Positions 7 through 56,900 of a stretch of 64,000 bases of DNA are shown one piece after another (position 1 is the first letter of the stretch; every line of letters starts with the position of its first letter). Both the position numbers and the translations under genes were made by a program. Below the pieces are notes generated by a model. The model saw only the letters and a list, made by a program, of their open reading frames with translations, searched no databases and had not been told where the DNA came from. This stretch comes from a virus, in the IMG/VR virus record IMGVR_UViG_3300042922_000643, positions 62,001-126,000 of that record; one strand, 5' to 3'.

Positions 7-198
7 TTAAACATAGTAATCATCGTCCCTCAGATAAAGTAATGGGTAGGACTCTGCGGGTTCATGTTCTTTACTTTCGCAAATCGGACATTCTGGATCA
101 ATCTCATAAGACTCAATATAATACTCATGCCCACAGGATATGCAAGCTACCCATATGTCTGTCGTTACTCTCTTTTTGAATCTCTTTCGTGTTGTCAT
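7..198 (-). CDS. Small zinc-ribbon protein
   Basis: 63-residue protein with two CxxC pairs (C19/C22 and C37/C40) spaced as in a zinc ribbon, flanked by a basic N-terminus (TTRKRFKKR) and an acidic C-terminus. Such minimal ribbons usually bind nucleic acid or a protein partner, but nothing here identifies the partner. The ATG overlaps the TGA stop of the upstream PIN-PhoH gene (ATGA), so translation is probably coupled; a GGAG lies about 11 bases upstream. The coupling suggests a role alongside the PhoH ATPase, which is inference. The zinc ribbon is well supported; the function is unknown. Confidence 0.8.
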   Translation of the reverse strand: MTTRKRFKKRVTTDIWVACISCGHEYYIESYEIDPECPICESKEHEPAESYPLLYLRDDDYYV

Positions 199-1532
199 TG
201 CAATTTTTCCACTCCCAGTTGAGCCAGTTTGGAGCGGACCACTGTTTCCAATGTGATGTGACCAACGATATCTTCACCTTTGAATTTATCCACCGTGTAT
301 GTAAGACCATTGCTGCTTGGCGTTAGTCGATGATCATCGATCTGTTGTGAGCTAATGTCTCCCAGGAAGACTACCTTACTACCCTCAGCAGCACGAGTAA
401 TGATTGTCGCAGCTTCATGTGCTGTTAAGTTTTGTGCGTCATCCACAATGATGAACTGACCAGGAATACTTCTACCACGAAGATGAGCCAACGCTTCAAG
501 CTCTAGAAATTTATTGTCAATGAGTCTTTGAATCTTATCACTTGAAGCCATGAATTTATCATCTTTATCTTCTTCTTTTTCAAGAAGGTACTCTAGTGCG
601 TCAAAGGTGGAAGCCATCCATGGACTTAGCTTTTCAAGCTTATTCCCAGGTAGATAGCCAATATCTTTACCCACAGGAATCAGTGGCCGCATTACTACGA
701 CTCTATTATATATTCCGTCTTTTCCTAATACTTGTTCTAGCGCTGCTGCCAATGTAAGTAATGTCTTTCCTGATCCAGAAGGACCGATTGCTGAAACAAA
801 TTCAATACTTGGGTCAAGCAAGAGATGGAGCAAGAACTTTTGTTCTAGAACTTCATTGCCTTCTTTATCTTTTTTCGGCTTAATTCCCCACGCACGATAT
901 TCATGTTTCAATGCTTGGATACTATGTGTTCCCGAATCATAAATACCTTGATGAATACCACCCGCTGGATCTTTCATAATTACAAACTGATTATGTACTA
1001 ATCTACGAGTACCTACATCAAAGCCCTGGATCGGATATGAACTATAGAACTCTTTTAATTCTTCTTTTGTAATATCGATATGTCGTACACCTGAATAAAG
1101 TTTACTTACGTTTACATCTTCAGGAGCGAAGTTCTGAGTATCAATTTTCAGAGAGTCTGCAATAACTCGAACATTAATATCTTGGCTGATTAAGGCCGCA
1201 TCTTCATCTCGCGCTGCTTTAATGATTTGGTGATCGTTCTTCTTCAGATCAAGGTCTTCCGCCTTGACAAGGACCTGAACCCAATGGCCTTCGTATGGAA
1301 CACCCGCATCCAGCTGGCCTCTTGTACGAAGCTCATCCAAGAATCTTGTAGTTGCTCGGCAATGTTCATTGATAGGGTCGTGACCCTTCTTGAACTTGTC
1401 TAGCTCGTTTAAAACTACTAGAGGAATAATTACATGAGTGGGTTCACCAAAACTCTTCAGTACGTCATACAGTGGCCGATCTAAAAGCACATTGGTATCA
1501 ACCACGACGCGTTTCAATTGTTGCGCTGCCAA
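195..1532 (-). CDS. PIN-PhoH family ATPase (PhoH2/YlaK-like)
   Basis: 445-residue fusion of an N-terminal PIN nuclease domain (about 8-130; acidic residues D12 in VVDTNVLL, E43 in LNELDKF, D100, D118) and a C-terminal PhoH P-loop ATPase (Walker A GPSGSGKT at 250-257, Walker B FIIVDDAQNLT near 356). This matches the PIN-PhoH class known from bacteria and common in large phages. Family members are proposed RNA-unwinding and cleaving enzymes; the role in phage infection is not established. Translation starts at TTG with AAGGAGG eight bases upstream. A promoter-like element lies at 1619-1647, so the gene may be transcribed separately from the block before it. It shares an ATGA overlap with the zinc-ribbon gene downstream. 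Confidence 0.93.
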   Translation of the reverse strand: MAAQQLKRVVVDTNVLLDRPLYDVLKSFGEPTHVIIPLVVLNELDKFKKGHDPINEHCRATTRFLDELRTRGQLDAGVPYEGHWVQVLVKAEDLDLKKNDHQIIKAARDEDAALISQDINVRVIADSLKIDTQNFAPEDVNVSKLYSGVRHIDITKEELKEFYSSYPIQGFDVGTRRLVHNQFVIMKDPAGGIHQGIYDSGTHSIQALKHEYRAWGIKPKKDKEGNEVLEQKFLLHLLLDPSIEFVSAIGPSGSGKTLLTLAAALEQVLGKDGIYNRVVVMRPLIPVGKDIGYLPGNKLEKLSPWMASTFDALEYLLEKEEDKDDKFMASSDKIQRLIDNKFLELEALAHLRGRSIPGQFIIVDDAQNLTAHEAATIITRAAEGSKVVFLGDISSQQIDDHRLTPSSNGLTYTVDKFKGEDIVGHITLETVVRSKLAQLGVEKLQ

Positions 1533-1921: not shown

Positions 1922-2653
1922 TTAGACCTCCTTGTCTTTCGTCAGGTCTTCGCCATTAGTCCAGTCACCAACAGTACCTTTGGAACGGTAATTGGAAACA
2001 GCGGTGTCAATAGCATTGTAGGCTGCGAACAAGGCCCCGCCAGAGTAGCCATCTATAAAGTCAGCAGTCAGGTTCCCTGTAGCAATTTTATCAGCTGTTA
2101 TCGCGTTAGACATGATATAGGAAGAAGTAACCGATTGACCACCTGCTCCGCGGGTCATTCCAATACCCATAGCTTGTCTATCTCTCAATGAGCTTTCGTC
2201 TGCTCCAATAAACAGGACTTCCCATTTGCTCTTATTACGTTGTTCTTCGATAAGTTCCTTCACACTGCTCCCCTGGAACTCTCTAGAGCAGTTCTCTTGC
2301 CCGTCAGTGATAACCATGACAATAACATTGGCTGGACGTTTCTTGCTCTCTGTGGCCTTAATACGAGCTCTCACGTCATGGATAGTGCGGCCTACCGCGT
2401 CGTAGAGTGCAGTACTACCACGAGGAACATAGTTAGTATCATCCAGAGGTTTAACATCATGAATGTCTACACCATCATAAAGTAACGTATACTCATGATC
2501 GAAGAGACTTACGGTAACAGAAGCTTCTCCAGGAAGTTCTTTTTGTCTTGCAATGAAAGCATTAAATCCTCCGATAGCGTCGTCTCGCATTGTATTCATC
2601 GATCCACTACGGTCTATAATAACTACGATCTCTGTCTTATTTTTATTTGGCAT
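1922..2653 (-). CDS. vWA-domain protein with MIDAS motif
   Basis: 243 residues forming one von Willebrand factor A domain. The metal-ion-dependent adhesion site is complete: DRSGS at 14-18, a conserved Thr in RGSTALYDAVG, and Asp in MVITDGQEN. Such domains mediate metal-dependent protein-protein contacts; stand-alone cytoplasmic vWA proteins occur in many large phages without known function. The frame is open to an earlier ATG at 2689, but ATG 2653 is preferred: it has GGGAGGA seven bases upstream, overlaps the end of the previous gene by 11 bases, and the protein then starts right before the first beta-strand. The C-terminal third contains AITADKIATGNLTADFI, which resembles decapeptide repeats in the giant fibre of this phage. 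No signal peptide. Confidence 0.9.
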   Translation of the reverse strand: MPNKNKTEIVVIIDRSGSMNTMRDDAIGGFNAFIARQKELPGEASVTVSLFDHEYTLLYDGVDIHDVKPLDDTNYVPRGSTALYDAVGRTIHDVRARIKATESKKRPANVIVMVITDGQENCSREFQGSSVKELIEEQRNKSKWEVLFIGADESSLRDRQAMGIGMTRGAGGQSVTSSYIMSNAITADKIATGNLTADFIDGYSGGALFAAYNAIDTAVSNYRSKGTVGDWTNGEDLTKDKEV

Positions 2654-2963
2654 CTTCTTGTCCTCCCACAGGTTGAATAACAAAACCATAGTTTTCGAAT
2701 CTAGTACTCACCTTGCTCTTATATAATTCCTGGGCATATGCTGCACCTTCAACAGCTTTTTCTGAAGCAACAGTTTTTTTATCGTAGAGCATGCCCTCTG
2801 GATCATCACGGTAGTCCCAGATACCACCTAGAACTTCTTCTCCGTCTTCGTAGGTAAGAACTTCTAATGCTAGGCCTCGTGGGTGTAACCACTGGCGATT
2901 AATCTCTCTTAAAAGTCCTGATTCACGGAACTCTTTAATATCCATACGTTTGATCTCGCTCAC
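2643..2963 (-). CDS. Hypothetical protein next to the vWA gene
   Basis: 106 residues from a GTG start with GGGAGGG six bases upstream. An earlier in-frame ATG at 2990 lacks a good ribosome site and would overlap a small gene ending at 2980. Features: acidic, mixed alpha/beta, an aromatic WLHPRGLALEV segment and IWDYRDDPEGMLYDKK. It overlaps the vWA gene by 11 bases, so the two are probably translationally coupled and may form a pair. I do not recognise a characterised family. Confidence 0.8.
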   Translation of the reverse strand: MSEIKRMDIKEFRESGLLREINRQWLHPRGLALEVLTYEDGEEVLGGIWDYRDDPEGMLYDKKTVASEKAVEGAAYAQELYKSKVSTRFENYGFVIQPVGGQEDAK

Positions 2964-3698: not shown

Positions 3699-3726
3699 AA
3701 AAAGGCCGCCAAATAAATGACGACCT
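3699..3726 (-). terminator. Rho-independent terminator after the GH26 gene
   Basis: On the minus strand AGGTCGTC and GGCGGCCT form an eight-pair stem (two G-U pairs) with an ATTTATTT loop, followed by TTTTT. It begins just after the GH26 stop codon. Confidence 0.85.
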
Positions 3727-3732
3727 GATAGA

Positions 3733-5172
3733 TTATTTAATGTATAAATTAGTCTCAGGAATAATTTCTTTTGTCACCGTAGCACTCTCCCAGTAAAGCT
3801 GCATGATTGCCGCAGCAGAAGCATCATAGAACTCGACAGTAATATCGTACTGAACATCCTTAACCAGATTGATAAGCCCTGAACCCCAGTTTGCACCATT
3901 GGTCCATTTGTTTACGACAAGCGCTCCATTGATATAAACCCTGGCCCCATCATCTGAGTATGTTATAATCTTATACTGCTCTGTAGATTTTGAAACAAGT
4001 ATGCCTGTCCACCGAACAGAGAAGTTATCAATAGGAAGCCCTGTAATAATAACTTTATTAGACCAGTTAAAATCAATCTTAGCATCGCGGCGCTGTCCCT
4101 TAAGCTCGTTAAAAGCAACACCTGAATAGTAATTACCTGATAGTCCATTCTCTCCAGCTACAATTTCATTACGGTTAAAGCTGTAAGCATCCGTATAAAC
4201 TGTCTTGATTGTAGCATCTGAATTATTCTCAGATAGCATTTTCCCCCAGGTCAGGAACCAAGAGTACTTATTCTGTGCTGTGGATAGAGTACTCATCGTA
4301 GGTAGTTCTCCGTTTTCTCCAATAGCAAGTAGCTTTCCACAAGAAAGTTCCGCAAGCTCATCATGGTGAGATTGTTTAAAATCTTTACTGTAGATATCCA
4401 AAGCTAGTACATCAACTCGATCATAACCGACATAGAAGTTCTTTATAGGTTGACACCATTGATTCTTGGCGTTTGGACACCAGACCCATATTAGATTATC
4501 GAGTGCATGTAGATTCACAAAACGATCATACATGATCTCCCATAGCGCTGCGAAGTTGTTCTTGTTTCCCCACCAGAACCAGCCACCATTCATCTCATGG
4601 TAAGGTCTCCACAGAACAGGTACGCCGTAGTTTCGTAAAACTTTTAGAGAAGCTGCAACTAGATCTATATCTCTCAGTAGTGCCTTGTAAAGATCTGTGC
4701 CAGATGTGACGATCTGATCAAACTCAGATTGTGTTGTGGCTCTTTGCACATTGCTCCATATTGAAGGAGTGCCTGGATAGACAGCGTGATAAGTTGCAGT
4801 AATAACTCCGCCGCCATCATGCCAGGCTTTGGCTGCATTAACTACACCTGCTCTTTGAGTGGCTAGAAGCGTATCACTCTGACCACTGATGCCACCGAGC
4901 TCAATGCCTTTCACCATAGGACGTTTGCCTGTTTTAGTGAAGACTTGATCGGAGTAGGAGTAAGGAGCTTCTAAATATTCATGTTGTCCAGTTAATATTC
5001 TTTTTCCTCGGAGGTCATAAAGCTTTTGTAGAAGGTTTTTTGCTGGAGTCATAAGGTAGGGATTCACAGGAGCCCGATTAAGATTCTCAAAATCAGATTT
5101 CCATGTTGTATCAGTCACAATCTTTGAAGCTCTTTCTACTAGATCCCATAATGCTTTGGACTGTTCGTTCAT
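3733..5172 (-). CDS. GH26 beta-mannanase-like glycoside hydrolase with PA14 domain
   Basis: 479 residues in two parts. Residues about 40-330 form a GH26 TIM barrel: GKRILTGQHE on the first strands, RPYHEMNGGWFWWG carrying the expected acid/base E193, and AIGENGELP carrying the expected nucleophile E286. Aromatic residues W189, W198 and W200-201 would line the cleft. Residues about 342-470 form a PA14-type module (YSDDGARVYINGALVVNKW), known as a carbohydrate-binding beta-barrel. Family knowledge: GH26 enzymes hydrolyse beta-1,4-mannans and related beta-glycans. There is no signal peptide, no coiled coil and no tail-attachment domain, and the gene sits in the replication/accessory block. It is therefore probably a soluble enzyme freed at lysis, though loading onto the virion is possible. 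GAAGGAGG precedes the ATG by about 11 bases. Confidence 0.9.
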   Translation of the reverse strand: MNEQSKALWDLVERASKIVTDTTWKSDFENLNRAPVNPYLMTPAKNLLQKLYDLRGKRILTGQHEYLEAPYSYSDQVFTKTGKRPMVKGIELGGISGQSDTLLATQRAGVVNAAKAWHDGGGVITATYHAVYPGTPSIWSNVQRATTQSEFDQIVTSGTDLYKALLRDIDLVAASLKVLRNYGVPVLWRPYHEMNGGWFWWGNKNNFAALWEIMYDRFVNLHALDNLIWVWCPNAKNQWCQPIKNFYVGYDRVDVLALDIYSKDFKQSHHDELAELSCGKLLAIGENGELPTMSTLSTAQNKYSWFLTWGKMLSENNSDATIKTVYTDAYSFNRNEIVAGENGLSGNYYSGVAFNELKGQRRDAKIDFNWSNKVIITGLPIDNFSVRWTGILVSKSTEQYKIITYSDDGARVYINGALVVNKWTNGANWGSGLINLVKDVQYDITVEFYDASAAAIMQLYWESATVTKEIIPETNLYIK

Positions 5173-5230
5173 TTAGCAATAACCTCCTTCACAATATAGA
5201 CATAATTATAGCTGTTCTGGAATGATATGG

Positions 5231-5518
5231 CTAGTCTTTATCTTGAACCTGTCGTACATTTTGATGAAACCATTTTGTTTCTTTACCTTCATACTGTTTT
5301 GCTATGATAGCTACAACCTCGTCTCGACTTAGGCTAGGGCAGCTTCCATGTATCGCTGCATATTGACGGTGAAAAGACCGCATTTCGTTTGCGGCCTCAC
5401 AGTCTTGTTGTCCTGTCCCGTAACAAGGGCAGTCTTTTTTATTGACGTATCCTTGTCCATCAGGACAGGCGTAGCAGAACACAGATTCTGCTATTATTCT
5501 TTTAATATTGTCCTTCAT
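5231..5518 (-). CDS. Small Cys-rich protein, DnaJ-type zinc motif
   Basis: 95 residues from ATG 5518, which has AAGGTGGAG upstream and overlaps the end of the previous gene. The frame is open farther upstream (to 5644), but that part lies wholly inside the preceding gene. Residues 15-39 carry CYACPDGQGYVNKKDCPCYG and a later Cys, like the CxxCxGxG zinc arms of DnaJ or of phage restriction-alleviation proteins. The remainder is helical (SRDEVVAIIAKQY). Probably a zinc-binding adaptor; function unknown. Confidence 0.75.
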   Translation of the reverse strand: MKDNIKRIIAESVFCYACPDGQGYVNKKDCPCYGTGQQDCEAANEMRSFHRQYAAIHGSCPSLSRDEVVAIIAKQYEGKETKWFHQNVRQVQDKD

Positions 5519-6131: not shown

Positions 6132-7241
6132 TTAGCCTGAGACAAGCTGATTATATCGTTGTGCTCCAAGAGCATTCACTTCACGGAAGTAAGACATTTC
6201 AGGGAAGAACTCAAAGAACATTCGACCCTTAAAGGAAGTATATTTGTTCTTACGAATATCGACTTCAAATACAGGCTGATTGTCTTCGCTGTCTGGACGT
6301 TTAAAGAAGACCTGTGCCTGCTGTCCGCGAAGACCCACTTCGTTGTAGCACATAAGAACAGCCTTGGCTTCATATCCGATCTTCGTAGATTCACGGATAT
6401 CATCAAGCCCAGGTCTACGGTTACCATTCAGCTTGCGAAGTTCAGCTGAGCAGATGATTGGGCAGTCAAACTTTGTAGCGATGAGAGAGAGTCTATCAGC
6501 AATATAATCGTATCTACCATTTGAATCCGCACCAAAGTTTGTACTAGATACAGTTACGTCATGAAAGTTATCTATGAATACAACGAGTTGATAGGTTTCA
6601 TCAATCCGTGACAATTCGAAGGAATACTGTTCAACAACTTTTTCAATCTCTTCAATAGAAGTTCCATCATTAGAGTCATACAATGCAAAGAAGTCAACTA
6701 GTGCATCGAGCTTCTCTACACCTTCTGCACGTTTCTTCATCTGCTCAATGTTATCTTTATACTTCTCTGGAGAACGAACGACATTGATTGGAATCATTTG
6801 GTCGATAGCGATGAACCGCGGCAACAGTTCATTCGTGTTATCATCTAAAGAGAAGTATACACAGAATGCTTTCCGTGGTCTATCCTCTGTAACAACTTGG
6901 TTGCTGTAGGAAACTTGCTTTGCAATCTGCATCATGAAACCACTCTTACCTACGTTAGATTGCGCAGCCACTAGATGAACTCCAGGGTTTAGTCCTTCGA
7001 ATGCATAGTTAAGCCTTTCGAATCCCCAATCGAGACCACCCATCTTACCACGTCTCCATGAGTACTCGTCCATGGCTTTAATTCTACCAATCATACTATT
7101 GCCAAGAATAGTTTCGCGGAACTTACCAGAGTTAATAGAGATTCTCGGCGCTGCTGCGACCTCTTCCTTCGCCTGTTCTTGTGGAATGCTCTCCCCAAAT
7201 AATACTTCATCCAAAGTTAAAGTCTTTTCATGATCTTCCAT
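6132..7241 (-). CDS. DnaB-like replicative helicase (RecA-fold)
   Basis: 369 residues, essentially a DnaB C-terminal ATPase domain after a short N-terminal extension of about 60 residues. Walker A is AQSNVGKS (93-100). A DnaB-type YFSLDD motif follows, Walker B is VVFIDNFHD, and ICSAELRKLNG then RPGLDDIRES matches the DnaB H3/H4 region. The usual N-terminal primase-interaction domain (about 150 residues) is absent, as in some phage helicases. Expected to form a hexamer that unwinds the replication fork with the primase encoded two genes upstream. GAGGGGA precedes the ATG. High certainty for the fold; the fork-helicase role is inferred from the family and the neighbours. Confidence 0.9.
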   Translation of the reverse strand: MEDHEKTLTLDEVLFGESIPQEQAKEEVAAAPRISINSGKFRETILGNSMIGRIKAMDEYSWRRGKMGGLDWGFERLNYAFEGLNPGVHLVAAQSNVGKSGFMMQIAKQVSYSNQVVTEDRPRKAFCVYFSLDDNTNELLPRFIAIDQMIPINVVRSPEKYKDNIEQMKKRAEGVEKLDALVDFFALYDSNDGTSIEEIEKVVEQYSFELSRIDETYQLVVFIDNFHDVTVSSTNFGADSNGRYDYIADRLSLIATKFDCPIICSAELRKLNGNRRPGLDDIRESTKIGYEAKAVLMCYNEVGLRGQQAQVFFKRPDSEDNQPVFEVDIRKNKYTSFKGRMFFEFFPEMSYFREVNALGAQRYNQLVSG

Positions 7242-8488: not shown

Positions 8489-9173
8489 GGTCAAGGCCCT
8501 CCATTGATAAAGAAGATTTACGCTCTTCTAGAATAAGTTCAGCATTTTTTATATATTTTTCAATATCAAAGGGCATTCTAGGGAATTCGTCTCCCACAGT
8601 TGAATCATCAATGGCGTATAGTAACGCATCAAGATCAGTCTGCCGAAGCATATGTTTAAACGCGCCTTTATCACGGTCACGATATCTACTATTATCGTTG
8701 CCTGTCATTCTATAGAAATAATCTACTAGATCATCTATAGTGAAAGATTCTTTAATCTCCAAAAAGAATTCCTCTTCATCATAAGAGGATCGGAATGTTC
8801 CATCAGGCAGTAGCTCTACAATGGGTGCAGGAGGTGCAACTTGAAGCGCAGGGTGGTGGTAGAATCGCAGAGGCTCAAGGATGTTCTCAGGATTCTTTTC
8901 GGGAAGTTTATTATGGATAATATTAATATTTAGAAAGTGAAAGATATCTTCCATCTTATATGCTTCTTTATAAGTCTCGCATCTGCGAATATACTCGCTA
9001 ATCATTTGAGACATAAGGGATACAGAATTGCCACTTTGCAACAATTGATCGAAGCTTTCCATAACGATCTTCTTATAATTTGCGGGGGCAGCAACCTTCT
9101 TCTGTGAATTCATGGGGTAGCCTTTTACTTCGGATAGAAATTTTACCGTTAATCCAATTGCATCGCTATTCAT
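8466..9173 (-). CDS. Unknown protein of the replication block
   Basis: 235 residues, acidic, mostly helical. N-terminal half: helical bundle-like (KKIVMESFDQLLQSG, SQMISEYIRRCETYKEAY). Centre: Pro-rich linker (LQVAPPAPIVELLPDG). C-terminal half: helical with IDDLVDYFYRMTG and DRDKGAFKHMLRQTDLDALL. The end overlaps the primase start by 23 bases, which implies coupled synthesis. A helicase loader or primase partner would fit the place and shape, but I see no AAA+ motif and no OB-fold pattern, so it stays unassigned. AGAGGACGAGGA precedes the ATG. Confidence 0.8.
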   Translation of the reverse strand: MNSDAIGLTVKFLSEVKGYPMNSQKKVAAPANYKKIVMESFDQLLQSGNSVSLMSQMISEYIRRCETYKEAYKMEDIFHFLNINIIHNKLPEKNPENILEPLRFYHHPALQVAPPAPIVELLPDGTFRSSYDEEEFFLEIKESFTIDDLVDYFYRMTGNDNSRYRDRDKGAFKHMLRQTDLDALLYAIDDSTVGDEFPRMPFDIEKYIKNAELILEERKSSLSMEGLDHVIPRPR

Positions 9174-9228
9174 TCCTCGTCCTCTCCCTTATCCCGTTTC
9201 CTTGGTGCTTATAAGTTTAGATAGAGAA

Positions 9229-9244
9229 GGGGGCCTAAGCCCCC
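9229..9244 (-). terminator. Hairpin terminator after the Rad52-like gene
   Basis: Perfect GGGGGC/GCCCCC stem with TTAG loop on the minus strand, followed by a pyrimidine-rich but broken T tract (TTCTCTATCT). It sits just after the stop at 9255 and may be partial, letting transcription continue into the replication genes, which have no obvious promoter of their own. Confidence 0.6.
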
Positions 9245-9254
9245 ATACTCTTTA

Positions 9255-10151
9255 TTATGCTTCTGGAACTTTTTTTGTCAAGAAGATATTGAATGCAGAA
9301 ATGTTCTTCGGATTCAAATGTGTGTTTGTTGTTGCACTTTGATCATCGAGGAACTCACGAATGTACGGGTCGAGTTGAGCATTGGATGTTACTCCAAGAA
9401 TCTGCTTGAGCTCCTTCATGCGACTGATTTCTTTTTCGTCCCAAGCGCTATCTGTCTTCTTTTCAGTAGAAGCAGTTGTGGCAGCTTGAGTTTTCGCTGC
9501 TGGTGTTGCTGGGGAAGAGGCAGGCGGTGTGCTCGGCTTCGAGGTTGAAGGCTTAGCAGGCGCTTCCTTTTCCTTTTCATCATCATCTTCATATAGTTCA
9601 AGACCGACACCGAACAGTGTTGCACACTTTTTCAAAGCGTCTGTAGAAGCAGACTTGTAAGCTGTTTCCTGTTCCGATGCGCCACCGATAAGTACCTTGG
9701 AGCCATATTGCTCTTTGATACCATAGCCAGGGACGATCAGGCGGCCTGTAATTTTAACGACAGGTGGCTGTTCTTCGTAGACTTGATTGCCATCCTTATC
9801 TAGCTTGTTTACTTTTTTGTTGCTCACATATTCGGTTACTGCCTTTGGAAGCGATGGAACGACTTCTTCGCTTACAATTTCAAAGCTCCATTTGTAATTG
9901 AAGGCTTCGTTCAGCAAGCGGATAACTGTGTGGCCCCCAATATACGAAAGCGTCGTATTCCCTTGCTTGCGCTGCTTGATCAAACTCTTGTCCAGATCCC
10001 GCTCCAAAACTTCCTTGGCGTGCGCAAAGCTTTCTTCAGTTACCTCACTGTTACATACGTCCAGCGCCAGATACCCTGTAGGTTGGGAGTAAGAAGACAT
10101 TCCAGTCAACAACTCTCCTTGGATTGCGGTACTTCCTTGTAGCTCGCTCAT
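9255..10151 (-). CDS. Rad52/22-type single-strand annealing protein
   Basis: 298 residues from ATG 10151 (GGAGG eight bases upstream); the frame stays open upstream through the promoter, so the longer form is rejected. The core (about 45-190) shows the Rad52 fold signatures: SYIGGHTVIRLLNEAFNY near 69-86, and the diagnostic helix KSASTDALKKCATLFGVGL (166-184). It is followed by a low-complexity Lys/Pro/Ser/Thr/Ala linker (about 196-235) and a small helical C-terminal domain. Family role: annealing of complementary strands in recombination-dependent replication and repair. It has its own sigma-A-like promoter and lies next to a ribbon-helix-helix regulator. Confidence 0.9.
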   Translation of the reverse strand: MSELQGSTAIQGELLTGMSSYSQPTGYLALDVCNSEVTEESFAHAKEVLERDLDKSLIKQRKQGNTTLSYIGGHTVIRLLNEAFNYKWSFEIVSEEVVPSLPKAVTEYVSNKKVNKLDKDGNQVYEEQPPVVKITGRLIVPGYGIKEQYGSKVLIGGASEQETAYKSASTDALKKCATLFGVGLELYEDDDEKEKEAPAKPSTSKPSTPPASSPATPAAKTQAATTASTEKKTDSAWDEKEISRMKELKQILGVTSNAQLDPYIREFLDDQSATTNTHLNPKNISAFNIFLTKKVPEA

Positions 10152-10206
10152 TTGTTTATTCCTCCATTTATTGGTTTGGAAGGGTAACTTCCCTTTCCAT
10201 GTCTTA

Positions 10207-10235
10207 ATTATACTATACGTTATGACAATTGTAAA
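10207..10235 (-). promoter_or_regulatory. Sigma-A-type promoter of the Rad52-like gene
   Basis: Minus strand TTTACA (10235-10230), 17-base spacer, perfect TATAAT (10212-10207). The -35 starts right after the stop of the RHH gene. A CAATTG palindrome overlaps the 3' end of the -35 and the start of the spacer. Confidence 0.85.
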
Positions 10236-10238
10236 CAT

Positions 10239-10397
10239 CTATTTTTTATAGTATACGGTGTTTTCGTACTTCTCGATTAGGTCCTTAACTGCTTCTTCCA
10301 CGAAGGCGGATATTGGAATACGGCTCTTCTCAGAAAGCTCTCTGAGCTGCTGTATAGTTTCTTCTTCAAGGTAAGATGTGAAACGTTGCTTTGTCAT
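10239..10397 (-). CDS. Ribbon-helix-helix DNA-binding protein (Arc/MetJ/CopG type)
   Basis: 52 residues from ATG 10397 with AAGGAGGG six bases upstream; the 18 extra upstream codons contain the promoter and ribosome site and are rejected. Residues 3-8 (KQRFTS) form the expected DNA-contacting strand. Helix 1 is EEETIQQLRELSEKSR and helix 2 is ISAFVEEAVKDLIEKY, the classical RHH layout. Expected to act as a dimer on a palindromic operator. A palindrome ATGTATACAT lies between the -35 and -10 of its own promoter, so autoregulation is likely, and the adjacent recombination promoter may be a second target. Confidence 0.88.
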   Translation of the reverse strand: MTKQRFTSYLEEETIQQLRELSEKSRIPISAFVEEAVKDLIEKYENTVYYKK

Positions 10398-10418
10398 GAC
10401 TAACCCTCCTTTTCTTAT

Positions 10419-10447
10419 ATCATAACATGTATACATTTGTAAGTAAA
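10419..10447 (-). promoter_or_regulatory. Promoter of the RHH gene
   Basis: Minus strand TTTACT (10447-10442), 17-base spacer, TATGAT (10424-10419), directly after the lysis-cassette terminator. The -10 matches 5 of 6 and the -35 matches 4 of 6. Confidence 0.65.
10427..10436. promoter_or_regulatory. Candidate operator palindrome
   Basis: ATGTATACAT is a perfect ten-base palindrome centred in the spacer of the RHH promoter, where a bound repressor would block RNA polymerase. Assignment to the RHH protein is inference from position. Confidence 0.45.
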
Positions 10448-10453
10448 GCAAAT

Positions 10454-10473
10454 AAAAAAGCCCCGAAGGGCTT
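10454..10473 (-). terminator. UUCG-loop terminator ending the lysis cassette
   Basis: Minus strand AAGCCC-TTCG-GGGCTT followed by TTTT; a six-pair stem with the very stable cUUCGg tetraloop. It overlaps the patatin-like stop codon. Confidence 0.93.
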
Positions 10474-11329
10474 ACTTGCCTTGAATAAATTTCTGTACCT
10501 CTTCAATCACACTCAGTCCATATGCGTAACCTTTTTCGTAAGCCTCAGCGGTTCGGTCAAAATCAAGTGACCGTATCTCAGGTATCTTTGGATAAAGACA
10601 TAGATAGTCTTTAGAGTTGGCAAGCGCGTAGTCCATGTTCTGATCAATCATGATATCCCAGGCACGACCTAATAGGCTTATGATGCCATGTGTTTCTTCA
10701 TAGCTTCCTTGAGTGCTGATATTGATTGCCACAATTTTATCAGCGCCCATAATGTTAAGTAAATTAGCAGGGAGGTTGTTAACAATACTGCCGTCACCTA
10801 AACTATGCGACCCCCAATGAAGAGGCGGGAATATACCTTGTATAGCAGAAGAAGAGTAGATCATCTTACTCAAGCTGATTCCTTCGGAGTATGTAAGTAT
10901 CTGGCTGTGTTCAGGAAGCTTCGTATTCAGGTCCATTGAAGAGAAAATGACCTGTTTCCCTGCGTTCATATCTGAAGATACTATGCTTAAGGGGACTAGA
11001 ACATCCGTAATGGGATGATCAAAGTTCTGATCTAAAAAGCTTTTTAGTCTCTTTCCCTTCATAATACCTTCAAGATTTTTAAACCGCCAAGGAATCCCCG
11101 TGATGATCTTTAAATAGTTGATATCCAGCAGCTTATTATTGATTTGCTGGATTAAGTCGAGACATTCAGCATGGGAGAAGCCCATTGCCTTCGCAGACGA
11201 CACGATAGCTCCTGCACTTGTCCCTGCATACATATCAGCCACAATACCATGCTCTTCAAAAGAATGGAGGATACCAAGGTGTATTGCTCCCCTGGCTCCC
11301 CCACCTGATAGAGCTACTCCGAGTTTCAT
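10472..11329 (-). CDS. Patatin-like phospholipase
   Basis: 285 residues with all patatin signatures: oxyanion loop GGGARG (9-14), nucleophile elbow GTSAG with Ser38, and catalytic Asp in LGDGSIVNNLP (D179). Family enzymes hydrolyse acyl chains of membrane phospholipids and are cytoplasmic or membrane-associated. No signal peptide. ATG 11329 is chosen: AAGGGGTGA lies upstream, and the GTG three codons earlier overlaps that site. It is the last gene of the lysis transcript, starting six bases beyond the stop of the LLH-holin-like gene. The context argues for membrane damage during lysis, though an effect on host lipid signalling is possible. Confidence 0.92.
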   Translation of the reverse strand: MKLGVALSGGGARGAIHLGILHSFEEHGIVADMYAGTSAGAIVSSAKAMGFSHAECLDLIQQINNKLLDINYLKIITGIPWRFKNLEGIMKGKRLKSFLDQNFDHPITDVLVPLSIVSSDMNAGKQVIFSSMDLNTKLPEHSQILTYSEGISLSKMIYSSSAIQGIFPPLHWGSHSLGDGSIVNNLPANLLNIMGADKIVAINISTQGSYEETHGIISLLGRAWDIMIDQNMDYALANSKDYLCLYPKIPEIRSLDFDRTAEAYEKGYAYGLSVIEEVQKFIQGK

Positions 11330-11334
11330 CGGAA

Positions 11335-11670
11335 TCACCCCTTCTGATTATAAAGCTCCTCAAGTCTTGGACCAATGAAACTACGGATCATACTTTCTGT
11401 CATCAGTTCTTTTTCGCCTTGAGTGAGAAATTCAGCGGCATCGATTTTGGACTTCACAAACTTGACAGCATAATCTTCAAGCTTGCCATAGCCCATAGCA
11501 TCAGCCTCGCGGATCTTAATCACTTCAGTGAACACTTCGGTAAGGATAGGACGTATCTTATCCCAAGGCAGTTCAGCGCCACTCTGACGGGCTTTAACAA
11601 CAAGAATACCAGCGGATGCGGCGGCCAATGTAATCACGACAGTTAGCACAACAATAGCAGCAATACTCAT
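11335..11670 (-). CDS. LLH-family holin-like membrane protein
   Basis: 111 residues: one N-terminal membrane helix (about 4-26, AAIVVLTVVITLAAASAGIL) with the N-terminus outside or very short, then a charged cytoplasmic helical domain ending GKLEDYAVKFVKSKIDA and ELMTESMIRSFIGPRLEEL. This layout is that of the phage LL-H holin superfamily. The ATG overlaps the upstream stop (TAATG). Its place between a second membrane protein and the patatin fits a lysis role. Confidence 0.72.
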   Translation of the reverse strand: MSIAAIVVLTVVITLAAASAGILVVKARQSGAELPWDKIRPILTEVFTEVIKIREADAMGYGKLEDYAVKFVKSKIDAAEFLTQGEKELMTESMIRSFIGPRLEELYNQKG

Positions 11671-53983: not shown

Positions 53984-56900
53984 CTACCCTCCCATATTTA
54001 TAGTCCCATCTAATGTGTTTTCGCCGTCCATGAGGGTGCTCTCAACTGGATCTGTTGTGGTGACAGGATCTACATACTCAATAATATAGTAAACACCGTA
54101 TGCTACATATTTCTTAAGTATATCTATAACCTGTTGCTCATCGAACTGTCCACCATTTATCTTCAAAATTGAATTAGGCAAATTTAAAATAATTACACCA
54201 TTACTGTAATAAGCTTGGCCATCCCATGGCCCCATATCCCAATGGTTCACCACAAGTGGATTCTTTTTCTTCAGCACATCTTTAGATAGACTCTCTTTTA
54301 CGCCGCCGCCGCGGACACGGGCATCCAGAACAGTAGCCTGATTTACATTGGTATGTTCTCGAAGCTGTGCTACACCGATCAAGAGTGCAATACCTGGCAT
54401 AGACTTACGGATCTGATCCCACTCTGCTTTGGAATAGCAATGACGAATAGTGTATGGGTTTGTATCCCCGAAGCTATTGGACTGCGGTACAATATAGATA
54501 TATACCTCCTTATTCATCAGTTTTGAAGTTGGGACTTCTTCATAGCTGAGGATAGGAACACCTGTGAGCTCTCCATTACGAATTACAGGGAGCGTACAGT
54601 AATGACCTTCAGATGGATTGAGGTCTAGATACATATACTTCTCTAGATTTTCATCGTAGTAGCCATTGTACTCTACAAAGTTTTCTTCATAAGAATAAGA
54701 GCAATAGATCTCGTCCTTGAAACTAATGGGAGTATTCAGGTAGAGAAGCCCGCTTTGTGTGTCATAATCTTTAATCGTAACAATCTTATCTACAGAGTAA
54801 AGATAATCGATATACACACTTTCGTTCACGTCTTCCAGAAATTCAACTGTGCCTTCATCATAATTAATTTGGTAGGTGTTGATATCTGCGATGTGATCCT
54901 GATCATTCGTACTTCCTTCAGGGATACGATAAATGACAGGGCTAGGGTAGAGTAGCCAGTTCTCATGGGTAGATACGAAAGTCTTCTTATCTGTAGTTTT
55001 AAGCATCTCTCTCTTTACTCGACCATTACTGTATGTTCGTTTTCTGAGGTCAATATTGTTGTAGGTATAATCAACCATGATCCGTCCTGGCGCTGTTTCC
55101 TCCAGAATGATACGACCACCTTCATAGTCGATATCATACTCACCTACATAATTAATGAAGACACCGTTACCGTTAGTATCCGAGAGAACAACAGGAGGAA
55201 CTGTTTTTACCCAGTTACCAGATAAAGCTTTGAAGATTTTAGCTGTTTCCCCGTCCATCTTTGTCAGTATCTCTCCAGAAGAGGTTCCTTGCTGGATATA
55301 TAAAGGAGAATTCTGGACACGAACTGTAGTGTCGTCAACGTATTCACAGATTTCCTTGTATATGCGGCGGAACGGTTGTCCTGGTTTAAAGATCTGACGA
55401 TCATATTCAGGTAGAGAGTATCGGTGAGTGCCAAATTGTTTTGTTGCGTATGCTGTAGAAAACTCATCATATTCGGCATAGCTAAGACTGTCCTTCGTAA
55501 AACTTCCGTTATGGACACGAGGCAACCACGGATCTCTCTCATCGACTGTCGCAGGGTAGGTCAGGTAAATACGTTCATCACCCTGAGGCTTTGTAGCGTA
55601 TCTGCGTTTGGTAGCTCGGATCGTGTAGTAGTCAGCCCATGCTTGAACAACGACCTCAAGGCGTGCAGTTCCAGCCATCAGCTCAGAATATCCAATCAGG
55701 TTCTCTCCCGATGTACTATAGAAGTAAACGCCAGTCTTCTTATTAAAGAATGCGACATTAACGAATGCATTTTCGCCGCGATCATCTACAGGGTCAACTG
55801 TAACTTCAAAGAAGATTCGGTCTTGATTTGCCCATTCCGCCCCAGCTTTCAAGTCAGGCAGTAGGGTTGTTAAAAGGTCAATAGTCACGATACCGTCAGA
55901 TCTTCGAATATCCATCTTCTTACGACTATAGTTTCCATACTCACGAATATATCTCGCTAACGTATTATCCCATTTATAAACAAATGACTTAATAATACAA
56001 TAGAAGGAAACAGTAGGGTCATAGGTTGTTACATCTGCCGAAGAGAATCCTTCTGTTTTAAGGTCAAAGGTGTCTCCTTTAGGCTTAACTGCGTATGCAT
56101 ATAGAGCAGAACTTCCATCATTATCTGGAGTCATGTACACACTTCCAATGTTATACATTTCCACATAATCCATATAGACCGTACCTTGTCCCGATGTTAA
56201 GAGGCCGATTCGAATTTCGATATCTGTAACTTCGGTCAAACCGAAATTAACCTCGACTTTTGTCCAGTCGCGATCTCCAATAATCAGATTTCCTGTAGCT
56301 AAAATTTCACCATTAGCTTTACGGATCTGGATTGTTGCGCCAGAAGAACTAACGTTTGATGTTTTGATCCAAGCGCTAGAACGATAAGAACCAAGAGGAA
56401 GTTGAGGGACACTGGAACTCCAGTATGCAGCACCTTCGGTAACTGTTGTAATCTTTAGAGCTTTTTCCCCGCGCTCTGAAATATTCGAGATATGTTCGAA
56501 AGTTGCTGTACCTAGCCCCAAATTTGTGCTCCACCCTGAGATCGCATTTAGGTTGGTATTTGTCCAAGATGTTACTGCGGTAGCTGTTGTGCTATCATAA
56601 CTACCAATCTCAAAGTCATTATTTGTCACAACGACCTGGCTGTCAGCTTGAACCTCGGTTTTAAATATGCCCTTTGCTTTGTAATACGAAGACGGCATAT
56701 AGGGGATAAGGGCATCTCTGATACTTTTATTCAGAATCTTTTTGGCTACGATTTGCGTACTATCCATATCGCTACGGTCATCAATATACACAGAGCGATC
56801 TCCATCGTTGTATTCCTGCTTAAACAGGTTATCTCTATGATAAACATACTCGCGCATCCATGGAGTTGTAACGTAATTCTCTTCAGCAATCCCCAGGATC

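Follow-up and report, generated by a model that had tools for sequence, protein, structure and literature searches.

A leaderless GH26-PA14 protein of a large phage as a candidate exopolysaccharide depolymerase released by lysis

Why would a large phage keep a free-standing polysaccharide hydrolase among its replication and accessory genes? Among the Bacillales, slime protects its producers from phages, and the gene considered here, which encodes a GH26 catalytic barrel joined to a PA14 module (Table 1), may be an answer to such a shield. It lies in a 64,000-nucleotide stretch of viral DNA (the window), corresponding to bases 62,001-126,000 of a 251,543-bp virus record. We favor the possibility, at a probability of roughly 0.6, that its product is a soluble, non-virion depolymerase of exopolysaccharide (EPS) that would be set free by lysis, working as PghP and LevP of phage phiNIT1 do but with another enzyme and another target. 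The initial annotation had treated a depolymerase outside the tail proteins as a surprise, which is lessened because soluble phage depolymerases, PghP and LevP, are already known (PMC6966330).

Table 1. Positions in the window of the GH26-PA14 gene, its parts and its flanking features
Feature	Position	Strand	Basis
DnaB-like helicase gene, upstream border of the interval holding GH26	6132..7241	-	annotation; KLEB27-3 synteny
Promoter-like site TAGCCA-17-TATAAT	5205..5233	-	10/12 consensus matches; pattern only
Ribosome-binding site AAGGAGG	5183..5189	-	sequence
GH26-PA14 gene, 479 codons	3733..5172	-	ORF, Pfam, AlphaFold2 model
N-terminal helical segment without leader, aa 1-34	5071..5172	-	alignment, hydropathy, model
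GH26 catalytic barrel, aa 37-336	4165..5064	-	PF02156 1.1e-51; Foldseek to GH26 structures
E193 codon, predicted acid/base	4594..4596	-	invariant; aligns with RPYHEMNG of 6q75
E286 codon, predicted nucleophile	4315..4317	-	invariant; aligns with ALGEVG of 6q75
PA14 module, aa 341-474	3751..4152	-	PF07691 8.7e-20
Terminator-like hairpin with T tract	3703..3726	-	consensus match only
PhoH gene, downstream border of the interval holding GH26	195..1532	-	annotation; KLEB27-3 synteny

The reading frame is intact, with its ATG at 5172 and its stop codon ending at 3733, and the 479-aa product matches the GH26 profile with 176 bits (cut-off 20.2) over positions 2-311 of 311. Both Pfam scores lie so far over the curated cut-offs that a chance match is ruled out. 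The AlphaFold2 model of the protein (mean pLDDT 85.9) consists of a TIM barrel, the predicted (alpha/beta)8 fold, and a beta sandwich, and the best PDB match found by Foldseek is 6q75, the GH26A enzyme of Muricauda (target TM 0.92, 37% identity). Known GH26 mannanases follow and the GH26 lichenase 2bvd comes far lower; the strong fold matches ranked over the lichenase are all mannanases or Muricauda GH26A/C. Both catalytic glutamates, E193 (in RPYHEMNG) and E286 (in AIGENGE), are invariant across 11 homologues in our alignment. The PA14 module was recognized by profile and by fold, and on these measures it is nearest to the polysaccharide-sensing PA14 of RsgI3 from C. thermocellum (6qe7; matched by Foldseek at 1.5-1.7 A, and by profile at 4e-93 versus at best 8e-17 for toxin PA14 domains). 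The profile search and the structure prediction, both suggested in the initial annotation, bear out its description of a free-standing GH26-PA14 protein with both glutamates in place, and the position that it gave, between replication and PhoH genes, is confirmed as well. The name 'beta-mannanase', on the other hand, was too strong. In Muricauda GH26A, the nearest solved relative, the catalytic residues are kept but a loop over subsite +2 blocks it, commercial mannans and oligosaccharides were left uncleaved, and removal of a native diatom mannan epitope was its only activity on mannan (PMC9860051). Given this inactivity on commercial mannans, the substrate of the phage enzyme is uncertain and a mannanase label taken from homology is unsafe.

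No hydrophobic leader was found in the first 45 residues, where the maximum Kyte-Doolittle mean over 11 residues is 0.29, compared with 2.5-3.2 in secreted homologues; this is a measure of hydropathy rather than a SignalP prediction and leaves non-classical export possible. The N-terminal segment is modelled as two helices (aa 3-16 and 22-32) and can be aligned with that of other phage copies and of leaderless chromosomal copies. No other ORF in the 251.5-kb record is similar to the protein, and a shared virion anchor was thus not found; the PHROGs hold no family that matches it. The promoter-like site and the terminator-like hairpin are pattern matches. The lack of a signal peptide and of a virion anchor, and the terminator of its own, had all been described earlier and were recovered here, the terminator at the level of a pattern. 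The sequence is thus that of a free-standing enzyme without leader or virion anchor, as would be expected of one of the PghP/LevP type, and in view of the missing export tag the simplest reading is that it would be freed when the cell bursts.

The TerL protein of the record is 59% identical to that of Bacillus phage vB_BauM_KLEB27-3 and 38% identical to that of Moorella phage MTATph1. KLEB27-3 keeps the gene order of the window (holin, endolysin, RHH, Rad52, primase, helicase and PhoH), but its helicase-PhoH gap is 0.7 kb and holds one small gene, versus 4.6 kb including the GH26 gene in the window. The GH26 domain is absent from 13 records with a related helicase, KLEB27-3 among them and several of them fragments, so that one of the 14 related records carries it. 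The short gap in KLEB27-3 and the relatives lacking GH26 indicate that the gene is sporadic cargo in a conserved block, and its distance from the main structural block of the phage is about 60 kb. The same region holds other genes that are missing from the corresponding parts of KLEB27-3: a VWA-like protein with a DRSGSMN motif is encoded between GH26 and PhoH (1922-2689, minus strand), and the gene of a patatin-like phospholipase (10472-11338, minus strand) separates the lysis genes from the Rad52 block. The phospholipase resembles PADLOC phospholipase effectors (1.8e-12), and in the relatives L131, L132, L136 and L141 homologues (39-42%) are found close to the endolysin or the helicase. In KLEB27-3 (L104, about 9001-10776) the match to the helicase is split in two by a gap, as though a sequence had been inserted there. 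A second glycoside hydrolase, GH15 glucoamylase-like (Pfam 1.5e-18), is encoded outside the window at record bases 54719-55807 (L095:14719-15807).

Leaderless GH26 genes were found, besides the window, in the viral contigs L002, L003 and L090 and in a prophage of G029, a Paenibacillus-group genome; bacterial copies with a leader are common. The IMG/VR phages L002 (166.8 kb) and L003 (94 kb) carry leaderless two-domain genes with 55% and 52% identity, respectively. The genomic slot varies by phage: replication genes adjoin the gene in the window and in L002, where it comes directly after a DnaB-like helicase, whereas in L003 it follows tail genes, an M15 peptidase (endolysin) and a tyrosine recombinase. 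The leaderless GH26 of L090 (175 kb; 38% identity) has another C-terminus and is transcribed opposite to its neighbours; used as a query for further phage copies, it returned L090 alone. In G029 the copy (50% identity) is found about 9-10 kb into a low-GC segment, whose edge is marked by a serine recombinase (28.0-29.6 kb) where GC drops from about 0.6 to 0.35. A terminase match stands on the same contig at 152.5 kb, about 115 kb further on, and several replication proteins of the element match L002. We read the element as a large prophage with GH26 near its integrase end. The leaderless branch spans single chromosomal genes, three different IMG/VR phages and one large prophage. A search for isolate phages with GH26 in 50,697 records gave only five unannotated fecal scaffolds with 24-30% identity, one of them matched in the PA14 part only; the three inspected are UNVERIFIED clones. 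A different kind of phage GH26, a 1011-aa protein with a leader, is encoded beside a 1280-aa tail-like protein on a 62.8-kb IMG/VR contig (L091:8381-11416).

Homologues at E<=1e-60 are present in 65 of 100 Paenibacillus-group genomes, usually several in each, and mostly share 42-51% identity with the phage protein; the phage gene is a member of a Paenibacillus-centred lineage. The bacterial copies come in two forms, secreted with a leader and leaderless. Secreted copies belong to EPS clusters that also encode Wzy, Wzx, glycosyltransferases (GTs), UDP-glucose/GDP-mannose dehydrogenase and ManC, as identified by Pfam on L010. When seven EPS markers, including Wzy, Wzx, GTs, UGDH and ManC (the product of the GDP-mannose gene manC), were counted in loci over 15 kb, at least three lay within about 10 kb of 40 of the 46 leader-bearing copies versus 2 of the 23 leaderless ones; because of the kinship among the rows, we take this as a pattern rather than as a test on independent samples. 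Leaderless chromosomal copies occupy other conserved places, and their existence means that the leaderless form is not phage-specific and may serve another role. One leaderless GH26, of 1083 aa, is encoded within an EPS cluster of Paenibacillus sp. Soil522 (L064:9992-13243). Upstream of leaderless GH26 genes (L005, L006, L014, L017, L066, L069 and others) we noted a conserved element, GCCGNNTCCNTGTCC-N10-CATACWATG, which is near-unique to the GH26 gene in each genome and whose -10 part resembles sporulation-sigma boxes. A wider regulon for the host leaderless class was considered and rejected, since at up to three mismatches the element matched essentially GH26 genes only. Recurring neighbours at the leaderless loci L005, L012, L017, L066 and L069 are a NucA/NucB-type nuclease, an M78 (ImmA-like) peptidase, a cytidine deaminase and an M15 peptidase without obvious leader. 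The phage TerL was found in none of the 100 Paenibacillus-group genomes, so it is the kinship of the GH26 protein, and this alone, that points to the hosts, which are probably soil bacteria of the genus Paenibacillus.

The composition of the gene is that of the phage. Its GC3 of 0.356 is inside the phage range (0.33-0.42) and under that of the bacterial homologues (0.50-0.64), and in codon use it resembles phage genes (0.110) more than bacterial GH26 genes (0.163). It is unlikely that the gene arrived very recently or stems from faulty assembly, and we set aside both a recent bacterial transfer and a chimeric contig. In the wider tree, a comparison that the initial annotation had called for, one leaderless chromosomal group falls with the phage copies in a clade (99/95) that stands apart from the secreted copies and from the other leaderless group. 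The branch order inside this clade is not resolved, and hence neither is the direction of transfer. Strict monophyly of the phage copies, seen at 99/93 with fewer bacterial rows, did not hold up as a resolved grouping once closer chromosomal copies were added. Of the earlier proposal that the gene may have been acquired from a host or soil bacterium, the analysis bears out the cargo status and the sharing with soil bacteria, in the form of Paenibacillus-group homologues.

In the simplest scenario, the infected cell would make the GH26-PA14 glycanase in its cytoplasm from a gene transcribed as a unit of its own, and the protein, being leaderless, would be retained there, apart from the virion, until holin and endolysin burst the cell. 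The freed enzyme would diffuse out, with PA14 holding it on the polymer, and would cut a mannose-containing EPS of Paenibacillus-type hosts; the slime around neighbouring cells would be thinned and progeny phage could reach them. It would stem from an EPS hydrolase of the host lineage, the leaderless form of which is carried by phages. The initial annotation had named a mannan-like wall or biofilm polysaccharide as a target after lysis: release by lysis remains the best reading, but the manC/wzx/wzy clusters point to EPS and away from the wall, and mannose-containing EPS is our better guess at the substrate than mannan. As the neighbours of the gene are replication and accessory genes and it stands outside the late lysis operon, late expression is not evident. 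A two-sided version of this scenario, which we hold to be doubtful, is that the leaderless GH26-PA14 protein serves as a lysis-released EPS hydrolase both for phages and for Paenibacillus itself. The bacterium would free the chromosomal version as some of its own cells lyse, for example mother cells, and the NucA/NucB-type nuclease and M15 cell-wall peptidase encoded nearby would be freed alongside.

Release by lysis would also fit an auxiliary metabolic gene, whose product, freed at lysis or acting in debris, would degrade beta-mannan from plants or soil and provide food for surviving kin or for the infected population. Soil viruses do carry CAZymes, including a viral GH5 endomannanase found to be active (PMC6786970) and a GH26 'mannanase' listed from mangrove soil (PMC6460857), and the mannanases and Muricauda enzymes that head our fold matches are in keeping with such a role. 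We nevertheless consider it unlikely: a cell under infection has no way of applying the leaderless enzyme to an external polymer before it dies, the lineage is tied to EPS clusters and not to mannan-utilisation loci, and no transporter, uptake or mannosidase genes were seen beside the GH26 gene. An enzyme that stays inside might instead have cytoplasmic targets, such as EPS or glycan intermediates, or benefit lysogens as a moron. The leaderless copies kept at conserved Paenibacillus chromosomal loci, the leaderless protein inside an EPS cluster (L064) and the prophage copy near an integrase end would all be compatible with this. We judge it quite improbable, however, as the polymers that GH26 enzymes attack are extracellular, polymerisation of Wzy-type EPS takes place outside the membrane and PA14 suggests polymer binding; moreover, an unsystematic look at the examined part of the window phage saw no signs of lysogeny.

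Most phage depolymerases are parts of the virion, and the L003 copy does come after tail and endolysin genes, so the enzyme could in principle be attached to the particle through a partner protein. This is very unlikely for a protein that lacks a tail-type N-terminus, resembles no other ORF of the record and has no matching PHROGs family, encoded far from the main structural block with a promoter-like site and terminator of its own. A tail spike was likewise rejected on the position of the gene, outside the main structural block, and on the lack of similar ORFs. Least probable of all is a passenger gene without current function: its sporadic presence in the related records would suit this, but the intact frame, the invariant active-site residues, the phage-adapted composition and the recurrence in several phages argue against it.

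The case links a phage enzyme through its ancestry to the hydrolase that hosts of this kind encode in their EPS clusters, and one leaderless enzyme is common to several different large phages and a prophage. If the EPS depolymerase reading is correct, the target polymer can be named as the ManC-dependent EPS of Paenibacillus, and viral 'mannanases' that are catalogued under carbon cycling may serve as weapons against EPS. The window enzyme shares both domains and its active-site residues with the secreted Paenibacillus EPS-cluster enzymes (L010, L024 and L004; 44-48% identity), which, unlike the phage copy, have a leader and adjoin manC, ugdh, wzx, wzy and GTs. It shares the missing leader and the aligned N-terminal helix with leaderless chromosomal GH26-PA14 proteins (L118-L122, L009 and L015, the group that joins the phage copies in one clade, and also the L005/L069 class; at most 51% identity), but these are single chromosomal genes with a GC3 of 0.52-0.64. 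Muricauda GH26A, the best structural match, has aligned catalytic glutamates but is a Bacteroidetes enzyme, probably periplasmic, from a mannan-use locus. The soil-virus CAZymes (GH5 endomannanase, chitosanase and the mangrove GH26) are likewise virus-encoded polysaccharide hydrolases; they are interpreted as carbon-use genes, in the accessible parts of their accounts no tie to host EPS clusters is drawn, and the GH5 enzyme and chitosanase belong to families other than GH26.

The closest parallel is with phiNIT1. The soluble phage depolymerases that we found described for slime-producing Bacillales target gamma-PGA and levan. PghP is reported to be non-structural, expressed late and released by the burst, and both PghP and LevP to have apparently been acquired from the host (PMC6966330); homologues of PghP have also been located in B. 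subtilis prophages (PMC4497714). Like these, the window enzyme is a free-standing phage enzyme with a surface polymer of Bacillales as its predicted target. It differs from them in its GH26 and PA14 domains, to which their folds are unrelated, in their substrates (gamma-PGA and levan), and in that its release and activity are predicted. On our analysis, it is a GH26 member that probably works in the way of PghP and LevP.
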